Source of the DNA: Bacillota bacterium | GTDB taxonomy: Bacteria > Armatimonadota > HRBIN16 | Reading direction: 5' to 3' | Assembly (NCBI GenBank): GCA_023511455.1 | Contig: JAIMBJ010000005.1 | Span: 62,001 to 126,000, forward strand | DNA length: 64,000 nucleotides | Shown: one piece after another, positions 25,001-54,604 of the stretch | How the letters are laid out: each line of letters begins with the position of its first letter | How positions within the stretch are numbered: position 1 is the first letter of the stretch | Notes under the pieces: generated by a model | Seen by the model: only the letters and a program-made list of their open reading frames with translations | Database searches by the model: none | What the model was told of the DNA's origin: nothing | Made by a program: the position numbers and the translations under genes

Positions 25001-26323
25001 ATGTGGACATATTCCCCCGAGCGCGTCCTGCAGGCAGCATGTCGATGGTGGAACTGGACACCTCATCCCGCTCAGCGCGAATGGATGATGGATACTCACC
25101 CGGTGAAGGTAGCGGCATGTGGCAGGCGGTGGGGCAAAACAGAGTCGCTGGCGGTGGAGACCGCTGCCCTCGCCCTGCTGCACCCCGGCATCCGACAGGT
25201 GATCGTTGCCCCCACGCTGGACCAGGCGAGCATCCTCTTCGACCGCACGCTGGAGCTGCTTCAGGACTGGGCAGAACAGACGGGCGCGAGACTGCAGGTG
25301 CGCGTGACCCCTTATCCCCGCGTGCGCGTCAACGAGGGCGAAATCACCGCTCGCAGCGCGTATCGTCAGGCGCGTTCCCTGCGGGGGAGAAGCGCGCACC
25401 GCATCGTGGTGGACGAAGCCGCCTACCTCACCGAAGAGGTCATCCCGCAGGTGTTGATGCCCATGCTGGCGGACACGGAAGGGCAGCTGGTGCTGCTGTC
25501 CACCCCTTTCGGCAGAAACCACTTCTGGCACTGGTATCAACGCGGACAGTCGGGCGAGGTGTGCCGCAGCTTCCGCTTCCCCACCACCAGTAACCCGCGT
25601 ATCTCCGCCAGCTTCCTGCAGATGCAAAAGCAATTGCTGACCGAGCGGCAGTTCGCCATTGAGTACGAGGCGCAGTTTGTGGACGATGCAGGGGCGGTGT
25701 TCCCCCAGGCGGTTATCGAAGCGTGTATCCAGCCCAGCCTCGCAGAAGCCAGACCCAACTCGTCCCCAACCCTCGCAGGGCTGGATTGGGGACGCTACCG
25801 CGACTACACCGCGCTGGTGCTATTGCGCGAGTCCGGCAACCGGCTGCAGGCGGTGCACGTGGAACGTATGCCCAGCACCGGATGGCAGATTCAGATAGAG
25901 CGGATACTCCACCGGTTCAGCGAGTGGTGGGTGCGCACCGTGTATTGTGACGCCTCCGGCGTCGGCGACCCGTTAGCAGAGATGCTGCAGCAAAGCCTCA
26001 GCCATCATCACCTGCACATCCATGTGGAGCCTGTGGTTTTCACCGCCTCTACCAAGCGGACAATGATCGAATCTCTCGCATTGGCGATGGAACAGCGTCG
26101 CGTGGCAATCCCTCCGCACCCCGACCTGTTGCGTGAACTGCACGCCTTCACCGCCAGCCATACCGGAAGTGGGCATATCCGCCTGCAGGCGCAGGGCAGC
26201 GAACACGATGACCTGGTGATTGCACTGGCGCTGGCAGTTCAGGCGGCGGCAAGAGCGTTGTTGGGTACGTCTTCCGTGCGCCCGCTCACCAGCGGCAGGA
26301 GACGAGAGGTGTGCGAGGTATAA
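25001..26323 (+). CDS. Phage terminase large-subunit-like ATPase/nuclease, isolated
   Basis: The 440-residue product has a terminase-like packaging ATPase and RNase H-like nuclease. Walker A is AACGRRWGKTES near residue 40 and the Walker B/catalytic region is HRIVVDEAAYL near 138. The nuclease begins with GLDWGRYRDYTALVLL near 263, has YCDASGVGDPLAEML near 310 and ends with SEHDDLVIALALAVQ near 405, which supplies the final acidic residues. All key motifs appear intact. No portal, capsid, small terminase or integrase lies nearby, and both neighbours are housekeeping genes. It may be a relic or a domesticated enzyme. GTGAGGTG precedes ATG 25001. Confidence 0.85.
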   Translation: MWTYSPERVLQAACRWWNWTPHPAQREWMMDTHPVKVAACGRRWGKTESLAVETAALALLHPGIRQVIVAPTLDQASILFDRTLELLQDWAEQTGARLQVRVTPYPRVRVNEGEITARSAYRQARSLRGRSAHRIVVDEAAYLTEEVIPQVLMPMLADTEGQLVLLSTPFGRNHFWHWYQRGQSGEVCRSFRFPTTSNPRISASFLQMQKQLLTERQFAIEYEAQFVDDAGAVFPQAVIEACIQPSLAEARPNSSPTLAGLDWGRYRDYTALVLLRESGNRLQAVHVERMPSTGWQIQIERILHRFSEWWVRTVYCDASGVGDPLAEMLQQSLSHHHLHIHVEPVVFTASTKRTMIESLALAMEQRRVAIPPHPDLLRELHAFTASHTGSGHIRLQAQGSEHDDLVIALALAVQAAARALLGTSSVRPLTSGRRREVCEV

Positions 26324-48943: not shown

Positions 48944-48972
48944 TTGACAACTCCTGCGGGAGTGTGTAGAAT
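48944..48972 (+). promoter_or_regulatory. Native tRNA-Gly promoter, now reading into the integrated element
   Basis: TTGACA (48944-48949) and TAGAAT (48967-48972) are 17 bp apart, and the predicted start site (about 48979) coincides with the first base of the 59-bp repeat. Because the tRNA behind it is truncated, this promoter now transcribes toward the integrase gene. Confidence 0.85.
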
Positions 48973-48978
48973 ATTAAC

Positions 48979-49037
48979 GTAGAGCGAGCGGGAGTAGTTC
49001 AGTGGCAGAACGCCAGCTTCCCAAGCTGGATGTCGCG
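48979..49037 (+). repeat. Left 59-bp direct repeat (attL)
   Basis: It is identical over 59 bp to 54521-54579. It covers a 9-base leader and the first 50 nt of tRNA-Gly, including the whole anticodon stem-loop dyad (49013-49029), the likely site of recombinase strand exchange. Sequences diverge immediately on both sides. Confidence 0.93.
48988..49037 (+). pseudogene. Truncated 5' half of tRNA-Gly(CCC)
   Basis: The first 50 nt of the tRNA, up to and including the anticodon arm, are present, then sequence changes at 49038 and the T arm and acceptor 3' strand are missing. It is the host-side remnant left by integration; the intact copy is at 54530. Confidence 0.92.
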
Positions 49038-49098
49038 CTGAAAGCCTCACCCACCACACTACATCTTGTGCCTCTTCACCCTGCATCAGCCTGAAAAC

Positions 49099-49112
49099 CA
49101 CAACATGTTGTG
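49099..49112. promoter_or_regulatory. Left-end palindrome CACAAC-AT-GTTGTG
   Basis: This perfect 14-bp palindrome lies 62 bp inside attL. A matching CACAAC-CT-GTTGTG lies 31 bp inside attR. The paired positions suggest binding sites for the recombinase or its accessory factor. The rest of 49038-49146 shows no other clear signal. Confidence 0.6.
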
Positions 49113-49146
49113 TTGCCACCAAACACACACACGGGAGGCGCAACAC

Positions 49147-50064
49147 ATGCAGATACTCAGCTTGCACATCACGGACACAAACACCATTAACACCACATTC
49201 ACGTTGTGGATGGAAGCACTACAGGCACGCAGGCTTACATCACGAACACTGGAAACCTACAGCGATATGGTAAGTGGCTTTGTGGCTTTCTTGTGCCAGC
49301 AAGGTTGCCAGCAGTTAGAGGAAGTGCAACCCCACCACATTCGCCAGTGGCTGATACACAAGCAAGCACAAGCAGTAAGCACCCACACCCTGCACAACGC
49401 CTACAGGCTACCACGAACCTTCTGGAACTGGTGCATACGCGAAGGCTTAACGGAACACAACCCTTTCGCGAAGGTAGAACCACCAAAACGTGAACAGGTG
49501 CTGAAGCCTGCCCTGAACCCTGAGCAGGTGGAAGCCTTACTGCAGGCGTGTGAAGGCAGGCACTGGCTACGCCTGCGCGATAAGGCACTGGTTCTGCTGT
49601 TGCTGGATACAGGCTTGCGCATTCACGAATGCCACCAGTTGCGCGTGGGTGATGTTCTGCAGAACGCGCTGATTGTGCGTGGCAAAGGTGGTAAACAGCG
49701 CATGGTGGTGCTGAGCGCAGAAGTAAGGCTTGCCTTACTGCGATACCTGAAGGCGTGCCCTGCGAAGCCTTCTGCACAACAGCCACTGTGGCATGGCGCA
49801 GATGGCGCACTTACTCTGGATGGCTTGAAACTGGCGGTGCGCAAGGCAGGCAAGCGTGCTGGTATTCAGTTAGGCGCACACCAGTTGCGCAGAACCTTTG
49901 CCACGTGGAGCCTGCGCAATGGGATTGATTTGGAACACCTGCGCCTGCTGATGGGGCACAGCGACCTGAAAACCACACAGCAATACCTGGCACTGGTAGA
50001 AGATGATTTGAAACGCGCACACGAACAGCACAGCCCACTGAAAACCTTGCGTGAAAGGAGGTGA
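49147..50064 (+). CDS. int: Tyrosine recombinase/integrase of the element
   Basis: The 305-residue protein has the N-terminal SAM-like core-binding domain (residues ~10-105) and the C-terminal catalytic domain. Catalytic residues are visible: Arg158 in DTGLRIHE, a lysine in RGKGGKQR near 180, His245 and Arg248 in HQLRRTFA, His271 in LLMGHSDLKTT and the nucleophile Tyr280. It should integrate and excise the element at tRNA-Gly. ATG 49147 is chosen because GGGAGG lies 7 bp upstream. The downstream gene begins 5 bp after its stop. Confidence 0.94.
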   Translation: MQILSLHITDTNTINTTFTLWMEALQARRLTSRTLETYSDMVSGFVAFLCQQGCQQLEEVQPHHIRQWLIHKQAQAVSTHTLHNAYRLPRTFWNWCIREGLTEHNPFAKVEPPKREQVLKPALNPEQVEALLQACEGRHWLRLRDKALVLLLLDTGLRIHECHQLRVGDVLQNALIVRGKGGKQRMVVLSAEVRLALLRYLKACPAKPSAQQPLWHGADGALTLDGLKLAVRKAGKRAGIQLGAHQLRRTFATWSLRNGIDLEHLRLLMGHSDLKTTQQYLALVEDDLKRAHEQHSPLKTLRERR

Positions 50065-50069
50065 AACAG

Positions 50070-50378
50070 ATGGCTACCCACTACTTCGAAGCAGAAGGCA
50101 AGGTATACAAACTGAACACCACCACTGCCACCAAACTGCTGGATACCTTCAGGCGCAATGGCAACCCACAAACGCGCTGGAGCGAAATCTATCGCACACC
50201 AGCAGGCAGGTATGTGCAGGTGAATCGCACGCAGTGGGAAGGTGAAGAAGATTCAGCAAGCCTGCTTCACGAAGAAGAGGTGGTGATAGCACTGGCACTG
50301 GCTGAACCTTCACAGCGCACACCAGAAGGTGAAGCCCTGCTGGCGCAGAAAGAATCTGCCTTCGTGCAACAGGCATGA
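50070..50378 (+). CDS. Small protein of unknown function in the element
   Basis: The 102 residues (starting ATHYFEAEGKVYKLN) show a mixed alpha/beta pattern with no family I recognise, and an acidic Glu/Ala-rich C-terminal third. A perfect SD (AAAGGAGG) overlaps the end of int, so it is probably translated with it. Its position suggests an accessory factor for recombination or replication, but nothing in the sequence proves this. Confidence 0.65.
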   Translation: MATHYFEAEGKVYKLNTTTATKLLDTFRRNGNPQTRWSEIYRTPAGRYVQVNRTQWEGEEDSASLLHEEEVVIALALAEPSQRTPEGEALLAQKESAFVQQA

Positions 50379-50408
50379 ATCTGCGCAGAAAAACATCTAC
50401 ACAAACCC

Positions 50409-50437
50409 TTGCAGTTTGTGGCAAGGTGTGGTATAAT
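50409..50437 (+). promoter_or_regulatory. Strong promoter with overlapping dyad, upstream of the hairpin RNA and HTH gene
   Basis: TTGCAG (50409-50414) and TATAAT (50432-50437) are spaced 17 bp. The dyad CCTTGC-N8-GCAAGG (50407-50426) covers the -35 box and half the spacer, an operator-like position, and its half site matches the iteron core of the primase-gene clusters. Confidence 0.8.
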
Positions 50438-50443
50438 GTAGAT

Positions 50444-50533
50444 GCTGGCGCGATGCGCTAGAGGATTGAAACTAGCCTGCTAAGATACCCGGATTGCTGT
50501 TTTACAGCACAGGCGAATCTTAGCAGGCTTTTT
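50444..50533 (+). ncRNA. Predicted ~90-nt structured RNA with terminator/attenuator
   Basis: From the predicted start near 50444 the transcript contains a small hairpin (GGCGC/GCGCT), then GGATTGAAAC (50463-50472), as at the 3' end of many CRISPR repeats. A perfect 13-bp stem follows (50474-50486 with 50517-50529) whose 30-base loop holds a second hairpin (TGCTGT/ACAGCA), and then TTTTTGC. The RNA could be a free small RNA or an attenuated leader of the HTH gene, whose SD begins 10 bp later. No cas gene is present. Confidence 0.55.
50474..50533 (+). terminator. Intrinsic terminator of the hairpin RNA
   Basis: A perfect 13-bp stem (AGCCTGCTAAGAT with its complement) is followed by five T residues. 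It lies between the promoter at 50409 and the HTH start at 50551, so read-through must be controlled or low. Confidence 0.75.
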
Positions 50534-50550
50534 GCTTTAGGAGGTGCTAA

Positions 50551-50739
50551 ATGCAAGAAACGCAGTACAAACTGTTGAGTGTGAAGCAAACAGCGCAGGA
50601 ACTGGGCGTAAGCCGGGAAACCGTGCGCAGGTGGATCCACAAGGGTGTACTTCGCGCTGTGCGCATAGGGAGGAACCACAAGATACCTGAGGCACAATTG
50701 CAGAAACTGATAAGGAGGCAGGGTGAGCTAACGCCTTAG
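50551..50739 (+). CDS. Excisionase-family helix-turn-helix protein
   Basis: The 62-residue protein is essentially one MerR/HTH_17-type winged helix. It has LLSVKQTAQELGVSRETVRRW at residues 8-28, then the wing KGVLRAVRIGRNHKIPEAQL. Such proteins direct excision (Xis) or repress promoters of mobile elements. GGAGGTG precedes ATG 50551, directly after the terminator hairpin, which suggests attenuation control. Confidence 0.87.
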   Translation: MQETQYKLLSVKQTAQELGVSRETVRRWIHKGVLRAVRIGRNHKIPEAQLQKLIRRQGELTP

Positions 50740-50754
50740 CATTCCAAAACGAAA

Positions 50755-50805
50755 CTCGCCTGCGCCAGGTTTTGAGCAAGCCACACGCGCAGGCGAGACA
50801 CCTGG
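50755..50805 (+). other. Predicted H-type RNA pseudoknot in the primase leader
   Basis: CTCGCCTGCGC (50755-50765) pairs perfectly with GCGCAGGCGAG (50787-50797). The first loop bases CAGGT (50766-50770) can pair with ACCTG (50800-50804) just past the stem, giving the order needed for a pseudoknot. No T-tract follows. The primase ATG is about 50 bp downstream. Confidence 0.55.
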
Positions 50806-50856
50806 TAGCTGAGCGAGCCACTACAACCATAGGAGGTTGCACCAGGAGATTACACT

Positions 50857-52878
50857 ATGATTATACCACAAAAGTTGCAAAATGTGTTAGCCAGATTGGG
50901 CAATGTGCGCCAACAGCGCGATGGCAGCTGGTTGGCGCACTGCCCTGCGCACGATGATCACGAGCCAAGCCTTCACATTACCCTGCAAAATGAAAGGGTG
51001 CTTCTTCACTGCTTTGCAGGATGCTCCTTGCAAGCGATCTGCAACGCGCTGAACATTGAACCCAAACATCTGTTCCTGTGCGAAGAACCAGCAAGCCACC
51101 AGCACCCTGAAGGCGAAGGATTAACACTGCAAGCCTTCGCGAAGGCGAAACACCTTGAGGCTGAACTGTTGCGCCAGGCGCAGGTTACGCAAGGTATGTA
51201 TCAGGGTAAGCCTGCTGTGTTGCTCAAGTATCGCGATGCTGAAGGCGACCTGCAGGCGATTCGCTATCGTGTGACACTGGCAGGCGATCGCTTCAGGTGG
51301 CAGAAGGGTGCTGAGCCTCGCCAGTTAGCGTATGGCGAGTGGTGGCTTCCCCAATGGCGTGAAAAGGGCAGGCGCGAAATTGTGCTGGTAGAGGGAGAGA
51401 GTGATGCCTTAACACTGTGGCAGATGGGCGTGCCAGCACTGGGCATTGCGGGAGCAAACAGTTTGAGCGAATATCACGCTGAACTGTTGGCAGGCTTTAA
51501 GGTGGTGGTTTGGCAGGAACCTGATTCAGGGGGCGCAACCTTCGCGCAGAAGGCTTCGCAGCTGTTCCAGAACGTGAGGCTAATCGAGCCACCACAAGGC
51601 GTGAAAGATGCGAATGAACTGTGGCTCAAGTGTGTGGCCCAACACGGCGAGAACGCGAAGGCTATTTTCAAACAGCAGATTCGCGAACTGCTGGCGCAGG
51701 CGAAGCCTGTGGAGGCTAGTGAACCCCAGACCTTGCATGAAACCTTGCAATATATAAGGGGTTGCAAGCTTCAAGGTGTTAACCACCTGTATACTCTCCA
51801 CGAACTGAAGAACGCGCCTGCCCACGAATCTTCAACAGAGGCGAGCCTGCCCTTCTTCGGTGTTTCAGGAATCATCCGTAAGGGCAGGAGCCACCTGCTG
51901 GCAGGCAAGCCACGTGTTGGGAAAACTGAAGCCCTGTTTCGTGGTGGAGTGCTGGAGTGGCACAACGAGAGAATACTCTACCTGAGCGAGGAGGGTATCG
52001 AAGATTGGCGCGTGCGCCTCGCCAGCTTCGCGGATGATGAATTGCCTGAACAGTGCCACGTGCGTTTGTGCGCAGGAGAATCGCGTGAGAATCTTCTGGC
52101 TGAGATTCGCGAAGGGGGTTACAGCGTGGTGGTGTTGGATACCCTGCGTGGGGTATGGCGATTGAGTGATGAACTCCACCCTTCACGTGTGATCCAGGAT
52201 GTATCACCCCTGATTGATTTACAGCGCAAGTTGCGGTTTACACTGGTGGTGCTTCACCATGAGCGCAAGGCAGAAGGCGAGGCTTTCAGCGATAGGTTTG
52301 CTGGAACGAATGCCTTGAGTGGTATGTTTGATATGCTACTGAGCCTGAACCAGAAGAGCGAGGGCAATTTGGTGCTTTCCTACGAAGGTAGAACCTCGCA
52401 AGGTGGCAGCCTGATGCTGCAGTGGCAGGATGGCAACCTGCGCTACGTGGGCGAGGCAGAAACAATGGAGTGGCGAGTGCTACTTCAGCGCATCGAGGCA
52501 GTGCTGTATCGTGCGAGTAAGCCATTAAACACTCAAGAGGTTAGGCGTGAATTAGGCGAACCTCTTCCAGGTTATCGCACTGTGTTGAACGCCTTAAACT
52601 ATCTCTACCAGAACCAACAGATTGAACGCGAACCAAAAGAGACCAAAGCTGGGGCTACTTACAGATGGTACATCACACCCACAAGGCGTGAAAGCCACAA
52701 GGCAACCCCTGAATCTGTTGCTATCCCCCACCTTGCACCTTGCGAGCCTATATATATGCAAGGTTTTTTGCAAGGTTCGAGCGATGGCGAGCCTGAACTG
52801 CCCTGGTGGGCAACAGGCGAGGGCGTGCCAGAAGGTGAGCCTGCCTTTCTGGAGGTGAGCGAAGATGAACGCGCATGA
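50857..52878 (+). CDS. Primase (CHC2 zinc and TOPRIM) fused to a RecA-like ATPase
   Basis: The 673 residues contain a CHC2-like zinc site (C29, H32, C52, C56) and a TOPRIM core (IVLVEGESDALTLW at 175-188, then EPDSGG at 221-226). The RecA/RepA-like ATPase has Walker A LAGKPRVGKTEAL at 348-360 and Walker B SVVVLDTL at 423-430. The C-terminal ~120 residues look like a winged-helix region. It likely primes and unwinds the element's DNA. The gene also carries two iteron-like clusters, in the TOPRIM-ATPase linker (codons ~291-308) and near the C-terminus (~625-640). It overlaps the next gene by 14 bp. Confidence 0.88.
   Translation: MIIPQKLQNVLARLGNVRQQRDGSWLAHCPAHDDHEPSLHITLQNERVLLHCFAGCSLQAICNALNIEPKHLFLCEEPASHQHPEGEGLTLQAFAKAKHLEAELLRQAQVTQGMYQGKPAVLLKYRDAEGDLQAIRYRVTLAGDRFRWQKGAEPRQLAYGEWWLPQWREKGRREIVLVEGESDALTLWQMGVPALGIAGANSLSEYHAELLAGFKVVVWQEPDSGGATFAQKASQLFQNVRLIEPPQGVKDANELWLKCVAQHGENAKAIFKQQIRELLAQAKPVEASEPQTLHETLQYIRGCKLQGVNHLYTLHELKNAPAHESSTEASLPFFGVSGIIRKGRSHLLAGKPRVGKTEALFRGGVLEWHNERILYLSEEGIEDWRVRLASFADDELPEQCHVRLCAGESRENLLAEIREGGYSVVVLDTLRGVWRLSDELHPSRVIQDVSPLIDLQRKLRFTLVVLHHERKAEGEAFSDRFAGTNALSGMFDMLLSLNQKSEGNLVLSYEGRTSQGGSLMLQWQDGNLRYVGEAETMEWRVLLQRIEAVLYRASKPLNTQEVRRELGEPLPGYRTVLNALNYLYQNQQIEREPKETKAGATYRWYITPTRRESHKATPESVAIPHLAPCEPIYMQGFLQGSSDGEPELPWWATGEGVPEGEPAFLEVSEDERA
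51730..51777 (+). repeat. Iteron-like cluster A inside the primase gene
   Basis: Two ACCTTGCA copies (51730-51737, 51742-51749) are 12 bp apart. They are followed by TATATAA, then the inverted partial copies TTGCAAG and CAAGGTG. The cluster lies in a protein linker and recurs in inverted orientation 1 kb downstream. Confidence 0.65.
52730..52776 (-). repeat. Iteron-like cluster B, inverted relative to cluster A
   Basis: Read on the minus strand it gives ACCTTGCA, 4 bases, ACCTTGCA, then TATATATA, then CAAGGTGCAAGGT: the same order and 12-bp period as cluster A. Plus-strand coordinates of the three full cores are 52730-52737, 52757-52764 and 52769-52776. Confidence 0.65.
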
Positions 52879-53812
52879 GTTGCTGGATGCCCTTCACGTG
52901 GCAGGCATCGCTGTATGGGTAGAACAGGGCAGGTTGGGTATTTACCCACCTTCACGCCTCACGCCAGAACTGAAGCAGGCACTGCGCGAGCAGGGCAAAG
53001 AGCTGGCGCGAATCATCGAGCAGGAATATATCTGCTGGCACTGCGAAAGCCACCACGTGCGCTTCGATGTGCCACTACAGCGTTACGTGTGTGAAGCGTG
53101 CAGGCGCGTGCTACAGGAACCTCTTTCACCCTTCCCACCACTGCATGAACTGCTATGGCAGGCAGGTTCAGTGTATGGTTTCCCTGCGCTGAAGTTAGCA
53201 CCCCACATCACCCTGAAGGCAGGGCGTGAATCATGGCTTACCTTCTGCACCTCACCCTTCACGAAACACCACACACGCCTGCTGGTGCTGGCGTATCGCA
53301 AACTGGTAAACCCTGCACAGGCAGATGAGATAGAACCTGAACCCAACCACAAACCACATCACACGACGGAGGTGAACCACATGAAACTGGTATGGCAAGA
53401 TTCCGAACCACTGCCCACTGGCGAATACCTGGTAAGGGTTGCCAGCATCACTGAGAAGGAGGGCAAGTACAGCCTGCAGTTACAGTGGATGTTTCGCGTG
53501 CTGGAACCAGGATACGAAGGGCGCGAACTGATTGCCTACACGAACGCCACCAACAGCACCACAGCCAAACTGGCGCAGTGGGCACGGGCGTTAGGTTGTG
53601 AAGTGGTGCCCGGTGAAGAGTTTGATACGGATGAACTGGTGGGGCGCAAGGCTATCGCTGTGGTGGTGGTAAAGCCTTCTCAGCAGGGCAATCGCTACAA
53701 CCACGTGGAGAACCTGCTACCAGTGCGCCAGAAGAAGCCTGTGGCTGTGAGTGCGAAGGCAGAAAGCGAGGCAGAAGAACGCGATTACTTCTCTGAAGAA
53801 GAAGAGGATTGA
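52865..53812 (+). CDS. TubC_N-like, zinc-ribbon and DUF669-like protein with internal start
   Basis: Residues 1-50 match the TubC N-terminal docking fold (LLDALHVAGIAVWVEQGRLGI), which is frequent on phage and plasmid genes. A CWHC and CEAC zinc ribbon follows at ~57-80. Residues 173-315 resemble the phage DUF669 family of presumed single-strand-binding proteins (GEYLVRVASITEKEGKYSLQLQW), with an acidic SSB-like tail (DYFSEEEEED pattern). A perfect SD (GGAGGTGA) 5 bp before an in-frame ATG at 53381 should give a separate 143-residue C-terminal product. The tail supports a single-strand-binding role by analogy. Confidence 0.72.
   Translation: MNAHELLDALHVAGIAVWVEQGRLGIYPPSRLTPELKQALREQGKELARIIEQEYICWHCESHHVRFDVPLQRYVCEACRRVLQEPLSPFPPLHELLWQAGSVYGFPALKLAPHITLKAGRESWLTFCTSPFTKHHTRLLVLAYRKLVNPAQADEIEPEPNHKPHHTTEVNHMKLVWQDSEPLPTGEYLVRVASITEKEGKYSLQLQWMFRVLEPGYEGRELIAYTNATNSTTAKLAQWARALGCEVVPGEEFDTDELVGRKAIAVVVVKPSQQGNRYNHVENLLPVRQKKPVAVSAKAESEAEERDYFSEEEED
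53381..53812 (+). CDS. Probable independently translated DUF669-like single-strand-binding protein (internal start)
   Basis: ATG 53381 is in frame with the longer gene and is preceded by GGAGGTGA at optimal spacing, stronger than the SD of the full-length start. The product would be 143 residues starting MKLVWQDSEPLPTGEYLV, the natural start of DUF669-like proteins, and would end in an acidic tail. Either two proteins are made from one frame or two ancestral genes have fused. Confidence 0.6.
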   Translation: MKLVWQDSEPLPTGEYLVRVASITEKEGKYSLQLQWMFRVLEPGYEGRELIAYTNATNSTTAKLAQWARALGCEVVPGEEFDTDELVGRKAIAVVVVKPSQQGNRYNHVENLLPVRQKKPVAVSAKAESEAEERDYFSEEEED

Positions 53813-53938
53813 ACCTTCGCGTAGAAGGCGTTTCTAAGCCACCAGAAAGCCTGTACAGCCACGATTCAGGCGCAGGCGAGGGGTTCCCCTTCCCTTCACG
53901 TGAAAACGCGCTGTGCAGGCTTCCTGGAGCCTTTCAGG

Positions 53939-54241
53939 ATGCACCAGCACACCTTACACGCCAGAACGATTGTACGCTACCTGCAGAAACGTGGTGCATG
54001 GGTAGCGCGAATACGTGGCACATGGGGGCAACGTAGAGGCTTGCCTGATATACTGGCGTGCTGGCAGGGCAGGCTGATTGCTATTGAGGTGAAAACAGGC
54101 AGTGGCAGGTTAACGCCAGCACAGAAGCGTGAACACGAAGCCCTGCGCACTGCAGGTGCAGTGGTGCTGGTGGGCAACGCTGAACAGGTGCTTTCCGAGC
54201 TGGAACATCTTACCCACGAACCCCAGTTGCGCTTGCTGTAA
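53939..54241 (+). CDS. VRR-NUC domain nuclease
   Basis: The 100-residue protein is a stand-alone VRR-NUC (PD-(D/E)XK) domain: RGLPDILACWQGRLIAIEVKTG near residues 38-60 provides the catalytic Asp, Glu and Lys, followed by GRLTPAQKREHEAL. Stand-alone copies occur in phages and satellites beside replication genes and are thought to resolve or process branched DNA. ATG 53939 has GGAG 8-9 bp upstream; a GTG at 53900 is an alternative. It is the last gene of the element. Confidence 0.85.
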   Translation: MHQHTLHARTIVRYLQKRGAWVARIRGTWGQRRGLPDILACWQGRLIAIEVKTGSGRLTPAQKREHEALRTAGAVVLVGNAEQVLSELEHLTHEPQLRLL

Positions 54242-54262
54242 CCCGAAAAATGAAACGGAAAA

Positions 54263-54322
54263 GGGTACGTAAGCATACCCCAACCTCAACGGCGATACAT
54301 GTATCTGGAAGGTGTACGTACA
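54263..54322. repeat. Cluster of short palindromes near the right end of the element
   Basis: Three dyads lie close together: GGGTA-N8-TACCC (54263-54280), the perfect GATACATGTATC (54294-54305) and TGTACGTACA (54313-54322). A single iteron core TGCAAGGT follows at 54359. The rest of 54242-54520 is noncoding. Confidence 0.5.
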
Positions 54323-54475
54323 GTGTACTATTTCATGCGCAGGCACGCTGATAGATTTTGCAAGGTTTTGGGAGATTTGGGGATATGGCGTGCTTGCTTT
54401 TTGTGGCAGAATGTGTTAAGATAAATAGTGGCTGTGTGAGATAGCCAGCTACCTGGAAATTGGCAGTGTGCGCAA

Positions 54476-54489
54476 CACAACCTGTTGTG
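54476..54489. promoter_or_regulatory. Right-end palindrome CACAAC-CT-GTTGTG
   Basis: It matches the left-end site in both 6-bp arms and lies 31 bp inside attR. TTGTGC (54485-54490) and TAGCAT (54508-54513) with a 17-bp spacer overlap its right arm and could form the promoter of the restored tRNA. Confidence 0.55.
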
Positions 54490-54520
54490 CCTGCAGGGCG
54501 TGAAGGGTAGCATATCTTGT

Positions 54521-54579
54521 GTAGAGCGAGCGGGAGTAGTTCAGTGGCAGAACGCCAGCTTCCCAAGCTGGATGTCGCG
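54521..54579 (+). repeat. Right 59-bp direct repeat (attR)
   Basis: It is identical to 48979-49037 and contains the leader and 5' half of the restored tRNA-Gly. Confidence 0.93.
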
Positions 54580-54604
54580 GGTTCGAGTCCCGTCTCCCGC
54601 TCCA
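54530..54604 (+). tRNA. tRNA-Gly(CCC), restored at the right end of the element
   Basis: A full cloverleaf with encoded CCA: acceptor GCGGGAG/CTCCCGC, anticodon stem CCAGC/GCTGG with loop TTCCCAA (anticodon CCC) and T arm CGGG-TTCGAGT-CCCG. Its 5' 50 nt come from the direct repeat carried by the element, its 3' part from the chromosome. Confidence 0.96.

Follow-up and report, generated by a model that had tools for sequence, protein, structure and literature searches.

The stretch of DNA analysed here (the window) is 64,000 nucleotides long and contains an element of 5,542 bp at a tRNA-Gly(CCC) gene, between a MATE gene and purA. Perfect 59-bp direct repeats of the tRNA gene border the element (attL at 48979-49037 and attR at 54521-54579, both on the plus strand, with a spacing of 5,542 bp), and the G+C content is 0.52-0.56 within it and about 0.60-0.62 in the flanks. 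ARAGORN places an intact tRNA-Gly(CCC) at 54530-54604 on the plus strand; hence the left repeat copy, which comprises 9 nt of upstream sequence and nucleotides 1-50 of the tRNA, is a displaced 5' fragment. The restored tRNA includes attR, and its 5' part and upstream region come from the element. In the sister genome G007, the MATE gene is directly followed by a single tRNA-Gly and purA, with flanks that are 87-95% identical to those of the window (about 95% for the right flank), and a second sister genome (G003) shows the same empty arrangement. Because both sister genomes have an empty site, the insertion is shown: the element is inserted into a formerly empty tRNA-Gly(CCC) site. The 5.5-kb island between tRNA repeats, as proposed in the first-pass annotation, is therefore confirmed by its length, its identical repeats, its lower G+C content and, as the strongest control, the empty sister sites.

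The native promoter of the tRNA-Gly gene (TTGACA-N17-TAGAAT, 48944-48972, plus strand), identified by a consensus scan, lies outside the element and was left behind upstream of the tRNA fragment, with int 175 bp further on. A TTGACA-N17-TA(G/C)AAT promoter is conserved just upstream of the tRNA-Gly(CCC) genes in G007, G003, G002 and G004, and the consensus scan revealed no comparable promoter in the element DNA that precedes the restored tRNA. In the Islander tally, 3,760 islands carry a 3' tRNA fragment and 159 a 5' fragment (PMC4383910), which places the 5'-fragment configuration of the window element in a minority of roughly 4%. A weaker tRNA and a host-driven int may be the consequence of this configuration.

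The 13-mer ACTACATCTTGTG is located at 49058-49070 (plus strand), and a degenerate copy, GCATATCTTGTG, at 54510-54521. Exact copies of the 13-mer are present in eight other loci of the family described below (L021, L024/L023, L059, L060, L063, L065, L066 and L129), and in those relatives that were examined it lies close to an att end, as in the window; it is probably an integrase or Xis binding site. The palindrome CAACATGTTGTG at 49099-49112 has a partner, CAACCTGTTGTG, at 54476-54489, beside attR.

Gene content and replication module

The element encodes six intact genes, all on the plus strand. The first, int (49147-50064), encodes a tyrosine recombinase of 305 aa (Pfam Phage_integrase, 2.3e-30), whose family is represented in all 23 elements that were clustered. 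It is followed by a gene for a 102-aa protein (50070-50378), a singleton in the family clustering that has no relatives among the clustered elements and no match in Pfam, PHROGs, NCBIfam or PADLOC. A terminator- or attenuator-like inverted repeat with 17-bp arms, followed by TTTTTG (50474-50529, plus strand), lies just 5' of the gene for a 62-aa AlpA/excisionase-like HTH_17 protein (50551-50739; HTH_17 1.1e-14, TIGR01764 excise 1.1e-14, phrog_66). The 673-aa primase-ATPase (50857-52878) combines a CHC2-like zinc region (weak at 0.0021, below the Pfam cut-off), a Toprim domain (Toprim_2, 6.3e-6), a RecA/RepA-like AAA_25 domain (5.7e-10) and a winged-helix-like C-terminal tail. The next gene (52865-53812) encodes a 315-aa protein with a TubC_N domain (4.2e-6), a zinc-like part and an SSB-like DUF669 domain (4.3e-6; phrog_378 SSB, 2e-4). 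Its zinc part has no formal Pfam match (best value 0.09), and a C-x2-C...C-x2-C pattern is kept there in three relatives. The last gene (53939-54241) encodes a 100-aa nuclease (phrog_93, 9.5e-19), which is 73% identical to its counterpart in the G003 element. Since Hjc (7.4e-8) outscores VRR_NUC (2.3e-4, just below the cut-off), "small HJ-resolvase/VRR-type nuclease" is the safer name. The gene order and domains that had been read from the sequence alone are confirmed, apart from the formally unmatched zinc part and the last gene, for which the broader name is preferable to VRR-NUC.

The absence of capsid, packaging, relaxase and partition genes, also noted at first reading, is borne out: searches of Pfam, PHROGs and NCBIfam gave none of the six window proteins a convincing match to capsid, terminase, relaxase or partition proteins. 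Overlaps of the 62-aa HTH protein with profiles of the terminase small subunit (TerS) are weak and confined to the HTH, and are better explained by the excisionase matches. The window copy has neither a TerS of its own nor a recognised cos or pac site.

DUF669 was experimentally proven to be an SSB in phage HK620, where it adjoins the RecA-like Sak4 (PMC5928155). As the model of the full 315-aa protein is poor (pLDDT 63), the DUF669 part alone was used for structure comparison. Its predicted structure (pLDDT 81.5) is OB-like, and its best PDB match is PrgE, the ssDNA-binding protein of pCF10 (E 1.2e-5), with SsbA lower in the list. The arrangement resembles the Sak4-SSB phage modules, in which a RecA-like ATPase is found beside a DUF669 SSB (PMC5928155), in that an AAA_25 ATPase accompanies DUF669. 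It differs from them by the fusion of the ATPase to a primase and by the N terminus of the SSB-like protein, which is TubC_N/zinc here and RNase H in relatives. The RNase H domain is fused to the DUF669 domain in L060, L066, L067, L068 and L027/L028; it was recognised by RVT_3 (2.9e-18) in L060 and by sequence similarity in the others.

Parts of the primase-ATPase are swapped within the family. The G009 relative is 41% identical to the window protein. The G005 protein shares its primase half (54% identity in the N-terminal half) and has a different ATPase half, while the G003 protein shares the ATPase half (64%) and has a different N terminus. Other replicases of the family are of the PrimPol-AAA_25 or D5_N/NrS-1 type, and that of L067 carries D5_N/DUF5906.

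A family of tRNA-associated elements

Whole genomes of the genus and phylum were searched with the primase, a TubC/DUF669 alignment, TerS and the flank. This identified 26 elements with a common core (int, primase/ATPase, DUF669 and usually the nuclease) within the genus and in further families of the phylum, one of them at the end of contig C44 in the genome of the window itself. For 20 of the 26, both ends are defined by direct repeats of a tRNA gene, and about a dozen kinds of tRNA gene are represented (Gly-CCC, Gly-GCC, Gly-TCC, Met, Arg-TCG, Arg-CCT, Arg-TCT, Leu-CAG, Leu-TAA, Gln, Thr-CGT, Lys-TTT and Ala-CGC). The elements measure 5.5-14.2 kb, most of them between 5.5 and 8.4 kb and three of them 11-14 kb, and the window copy is the smallest of those bounded by repeats. 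Among the 23 clustered elements, int is present in 23, the primase/ATPase and DUF669 in 22 each, and the nuclease and C4, a conserved protein of about 115 aa that is missing from the window copy, in 17 each. A search for the core genes as part of some larger prophage or conjugative element, an arrangement that would speak against the first-pass reading of a compact island, found none.

As cargo, L069 carries a type IIG restriction enzyme. The 14.2-kb member (L064:12598-18580) encodes additional proteins of 212, 161, 498 and 686 aa, which are almost without PHROG or Pfam matches and are possibly virion-related. A 17-kb island at tRNA-Gly(CCC) (L132, G005:C3:336000-355999) contains BrxL, SspC-like and SspD-like defence genes together with an integrase fragment.

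G005 has an 8.36-kb element whose body is identical at two sites, tRNA-Thr(CGT) on one contig and tRNA-Lys(CTT) on further contigs (L059, L023 and L024). A comparison with the third contig's copy gave 17 mismatches over the first 3 kb, all of them confined to the initial 62 nt at the att end, which correspond to the carried tRNA half and its immediate edge. Because the bodies are identical and the differences are confined to the att end, this element has probably moved recently from one tRNA gene to another and swapped the tRNA half that it carries, an apparent retargeting; its copy number is two or three, since the copies sit at contig ends. Judging from the identical bodies of this one member in two tRNA genes, the family is recently mobile.

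The replicase gene of the window copy contains CCTTGCA repeats in two inverted arrangements, one around TATATAAGGGG in the Toprim/AAA_25 linker (51731-51773), a putative iteron or origin array, and one around CCTATATATAT 3' of the ATPase domain (52731-52783). In the replicase gene of most relatives, one or both of the linkers that bracket the ATPase domain contain inverted repeats with arms made of tandem repeats, and the core of the array is often G-rich, as in L069 (ATTCTGGCAATCTGGCAA...TTGCCAGATTGCCAGAAT) and L075 (TGCAATAGTGCAAAAGTGCAA...). The best inverted-repeat score is at least 12 in 17 of 21 replicase genes; codon-shuffled controls (20 per gene) peak at no more than 13, except for L070 (control maximum 16, observed 15), and integrase genes score at most 9. 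The window arrays are weaker than those of the relatives and, as simple inverted repeats, stay within the codon-shuffled controls (top score 10, elsewhere in the gene, against a maximum of 10). They are visible solely as clustered copies of CCTTGCA, a motif picked after looking, of which 8 of the 11 copies in the 64-kb window fall within the element. Tandem arrays of 64-75-nt palindromes with changing centres (TTGCATCAGGTCxxx...GACCTGATGCAA) are also present at L024:15893-16131, L062:11935-12175 and L065:12906-12959.

Origins embedded in a replicase gene have precedents in lambda ori within O and in the ssi sites of RSF1010, and the reading that we favour is that the arrays may be such origins. 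That the palindrome arms track the ATPase domain was not established (Mantel r=0.14, p=0.05; r=0.24, p=0.004 for the primase half), and the arms differ even among C termini that are 56% similar. Tentatively, the family might be a satellite lineage with a swappable replicase cassette that brings its own origin. Each element would have a private palindromic array in the linkers bracketing the ATPase, with tandem 8-11-nt repeats as arms around a G-rich, often TTAAGGGG-like core. Several elements per genome would reside at different tRNAs, could retarget by exchanging the carried tRNA half, and would diverge in their arrays as in an iteron incompatibility system.

PICIs redirect the packaging of their helper by a TerS of their own, without TerL or capsid genes. 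TerS homologues were detected in 13 of the 26 elements (phrog_4044, 1.3e-21 in G005; phrog_4102, 4e-11 in G200; Sf6_terminase in Pfam), and every strong TerS match within the genus lies inside a family element. No TerL, portal, capsid or relaxase was found among the element proteins that were scanned. The closest relatives of the G005 TerS in IMG/VR are 56-60% identical, and on their contigs the next genes encode TerL (Terminase_6C) and then a Mu-type portal and gpF. A TerL search revealed no helper prophage in the genus; it yielded one conserved orphan TerL per genome and a second in G003. In the window, a solitary large-terminase-like gene (25001-26323, plus strand; phrog_2 3e-47, Terminase_6C, 6N) lies amid housekeeping genes with no prophage around it, and a Terminase_6C match is present in 9 of 10 genus genomes.

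IMG/VR scans produced no satellite contigs and few, weak phage matches (one with the primase, none with the TubC/DUF669 alignment, two with C4 and one with the DUF669 core), and no virion origin for any member was seen with these queries. A scan of genome contigs gave only three matches, all distant, and searches of plasmid and phage proteins gave identities below 33% with partial coverage. Phages contain related primases and DUF669 proteins, but the gene order of the island, for which a search of viral and plasmid databases had been suggested, was not found in them, and the plasmid database gave no close relatives.

Satellite and plasmid readings

The first-pass annotation had left the choice between a phage satellite and an integrated plasmid. 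We consider the island to be probably a minimal, TerS-less member of a PICI/PICMI-like lineage of phage satellites, a reading that ranks above that of an integrative plasmid, its main rival. It gains support from the recurrence of the module between tRNA repeats, from the TerS homologues of 13 elements in which neither TerL nor capsid genes were found, and from the restriction-modification system of one relative. Excision, replication, helper dependence and packaging are inferred. The integrase and the AlpA/Xis-like HTH protein would insert and excise the island at tRNA-Gly(CCC), and the excised island would be replicated by the primase-helicase, SSB and nuclease that it encodes. It would be packaged and carried by a helper phage that probably does not reside in the genome. 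Relatives may steer packaging with their own terminase small subunit, and the TerS-less window copy would be packaged through recognition of a DNA site, the route suggested for PICMIs. Against the satellite reading count the lack of a TerS or recognised cos/pac site in the window copy, the failure to identify a helper in the genus or a virion origin in the IMG/VR scans, and a replication kit that would equally suit an autonomous plasmid.

An integrative plasmid, or integrative replicon, would excise, replicate by primase-helicase and SSB from palindromic iterons, and spread through natural transformation, through mobilisation in trans or in vesicles, with no need of a helper phage. The complete replication kit, the iteron-like palindromic arrays within the replicase gene, the match of the DUF669 model to the plasmid protein PrgE and the missing TerS of the window copy are all consistent with this reading, which we nevertheless regard as rather unlikely. 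Partition genes, a relaxase and an oriT-like gene are all absent, the primase matches only 7 of 72,556 plasmid records (all below 31% identity, none reaching 80% coverage), and a plasmid would hardly account for the TerS homologues that half of the elements carry.

It is improbable that the window copy is a decayed satellite or prophage remnant that has lost TerS and other cargo and become immobile. Its small size and the lack of both TerS and C4, which 17 relatives have, would fit decay, but its six open reading frames are intact, the two att repeats agree at all 59 nt and the sister site is empty; the insertion is therefore recent or well preserved. Least of all do we expect an IME-like, helper-dependent island mobilised by a conjugative element rather than a phage: IMEs and satellites alike use a tyrosine recombinase to integrate into tRNA genes, no tool result favours an IME specifically, Pfam, PHROGs and NCBIfam yielded no relaxase or mobilisation protein, and TerS in relatives points to packaging.

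Comparison with known satellites

Most of the satellite families described so far are from Proteobacteria, Firmicutes and marine bacteria that are well studied. A diverse, multi-copy family in many tRNA genes of another phylum would extend satellites to a little-studied lineage, and the series from TerS-bearing to TerS-less members offers a natural test of the least that a DNA parasite needs to ride phage particles. Interchangeable primases (DnaG-type, PrimPol and D5/NrS-1-type), RNase H-SSB fusions and replicase-gene palindromes make the exchange of replication modules directly testable. Our literature search retrieved no paper on elements of this kind.

The window copy resembles PICMI115, whose minimal plan is almost the same: this experimentally proven satellite has a length of about 6 kb, carries int, alpA, a primase and unknown genes but no capsid genes, and is packaged as concatemers (PMC10803314). 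The window island shares with the PICMIs of Vibrionaceae the format of a chromosomal island of about 5-6 kb with int, an HTH_17/AlpA-type regulator, a primase, few unknown genes and no capsid-remodelling or structural genes, and it has the integrase and AlpA-type HTH (PF12728) of the PICMI model (PMC10803314). In contrast, it carries Toprim_2 and AAA_25 instead of the primase domains DUF3987/DUF5906, together with a DUF669 SSB and a nuclease, and it resides at tRNA-Gly(CCC), with relatives at tRNA genes, instead of beside fis; many relatives also have TerS. Since the fis site and the primase families differ, the island is not a PICMI.

PICIs (SaPI and Gram-negative PICIs) are similar in int, small HTH regulators and a primase or replicase, in the TerS of many relatives, in the lack of TerL and capsid genes, and in the defence cargo of one relative. 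They differ in that no interference or stl/rpp genes were recognised here, the window copy is without TerS, the replicases are different and the host belongs to another phylum. The six window proteins do not match the P4-like core (psu, sid, delta, epsilon and D5-type alpha), the capsid, portal and protease genes of cfPICIs are absent from the island, and so are the relaxase and conjugation genes of an IME or ICE derivative. Tycheposons and VEIMEs of marine bacteria are, from their description, likewise tyrosine recombinase elements at tRNA genes, some of which are called satellites; tycheposons, with which the island is compared by description only, are presented as cargo-carrying elements of 4-200 kb in marine bacteria (PMC10872708). 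The general plan of phage satellites, an att-bounded chromosomal island with an integrase, a regulator and replication genes and no structural genes, is found in the window island, and the family is apparently an undescribed satellite-like group.
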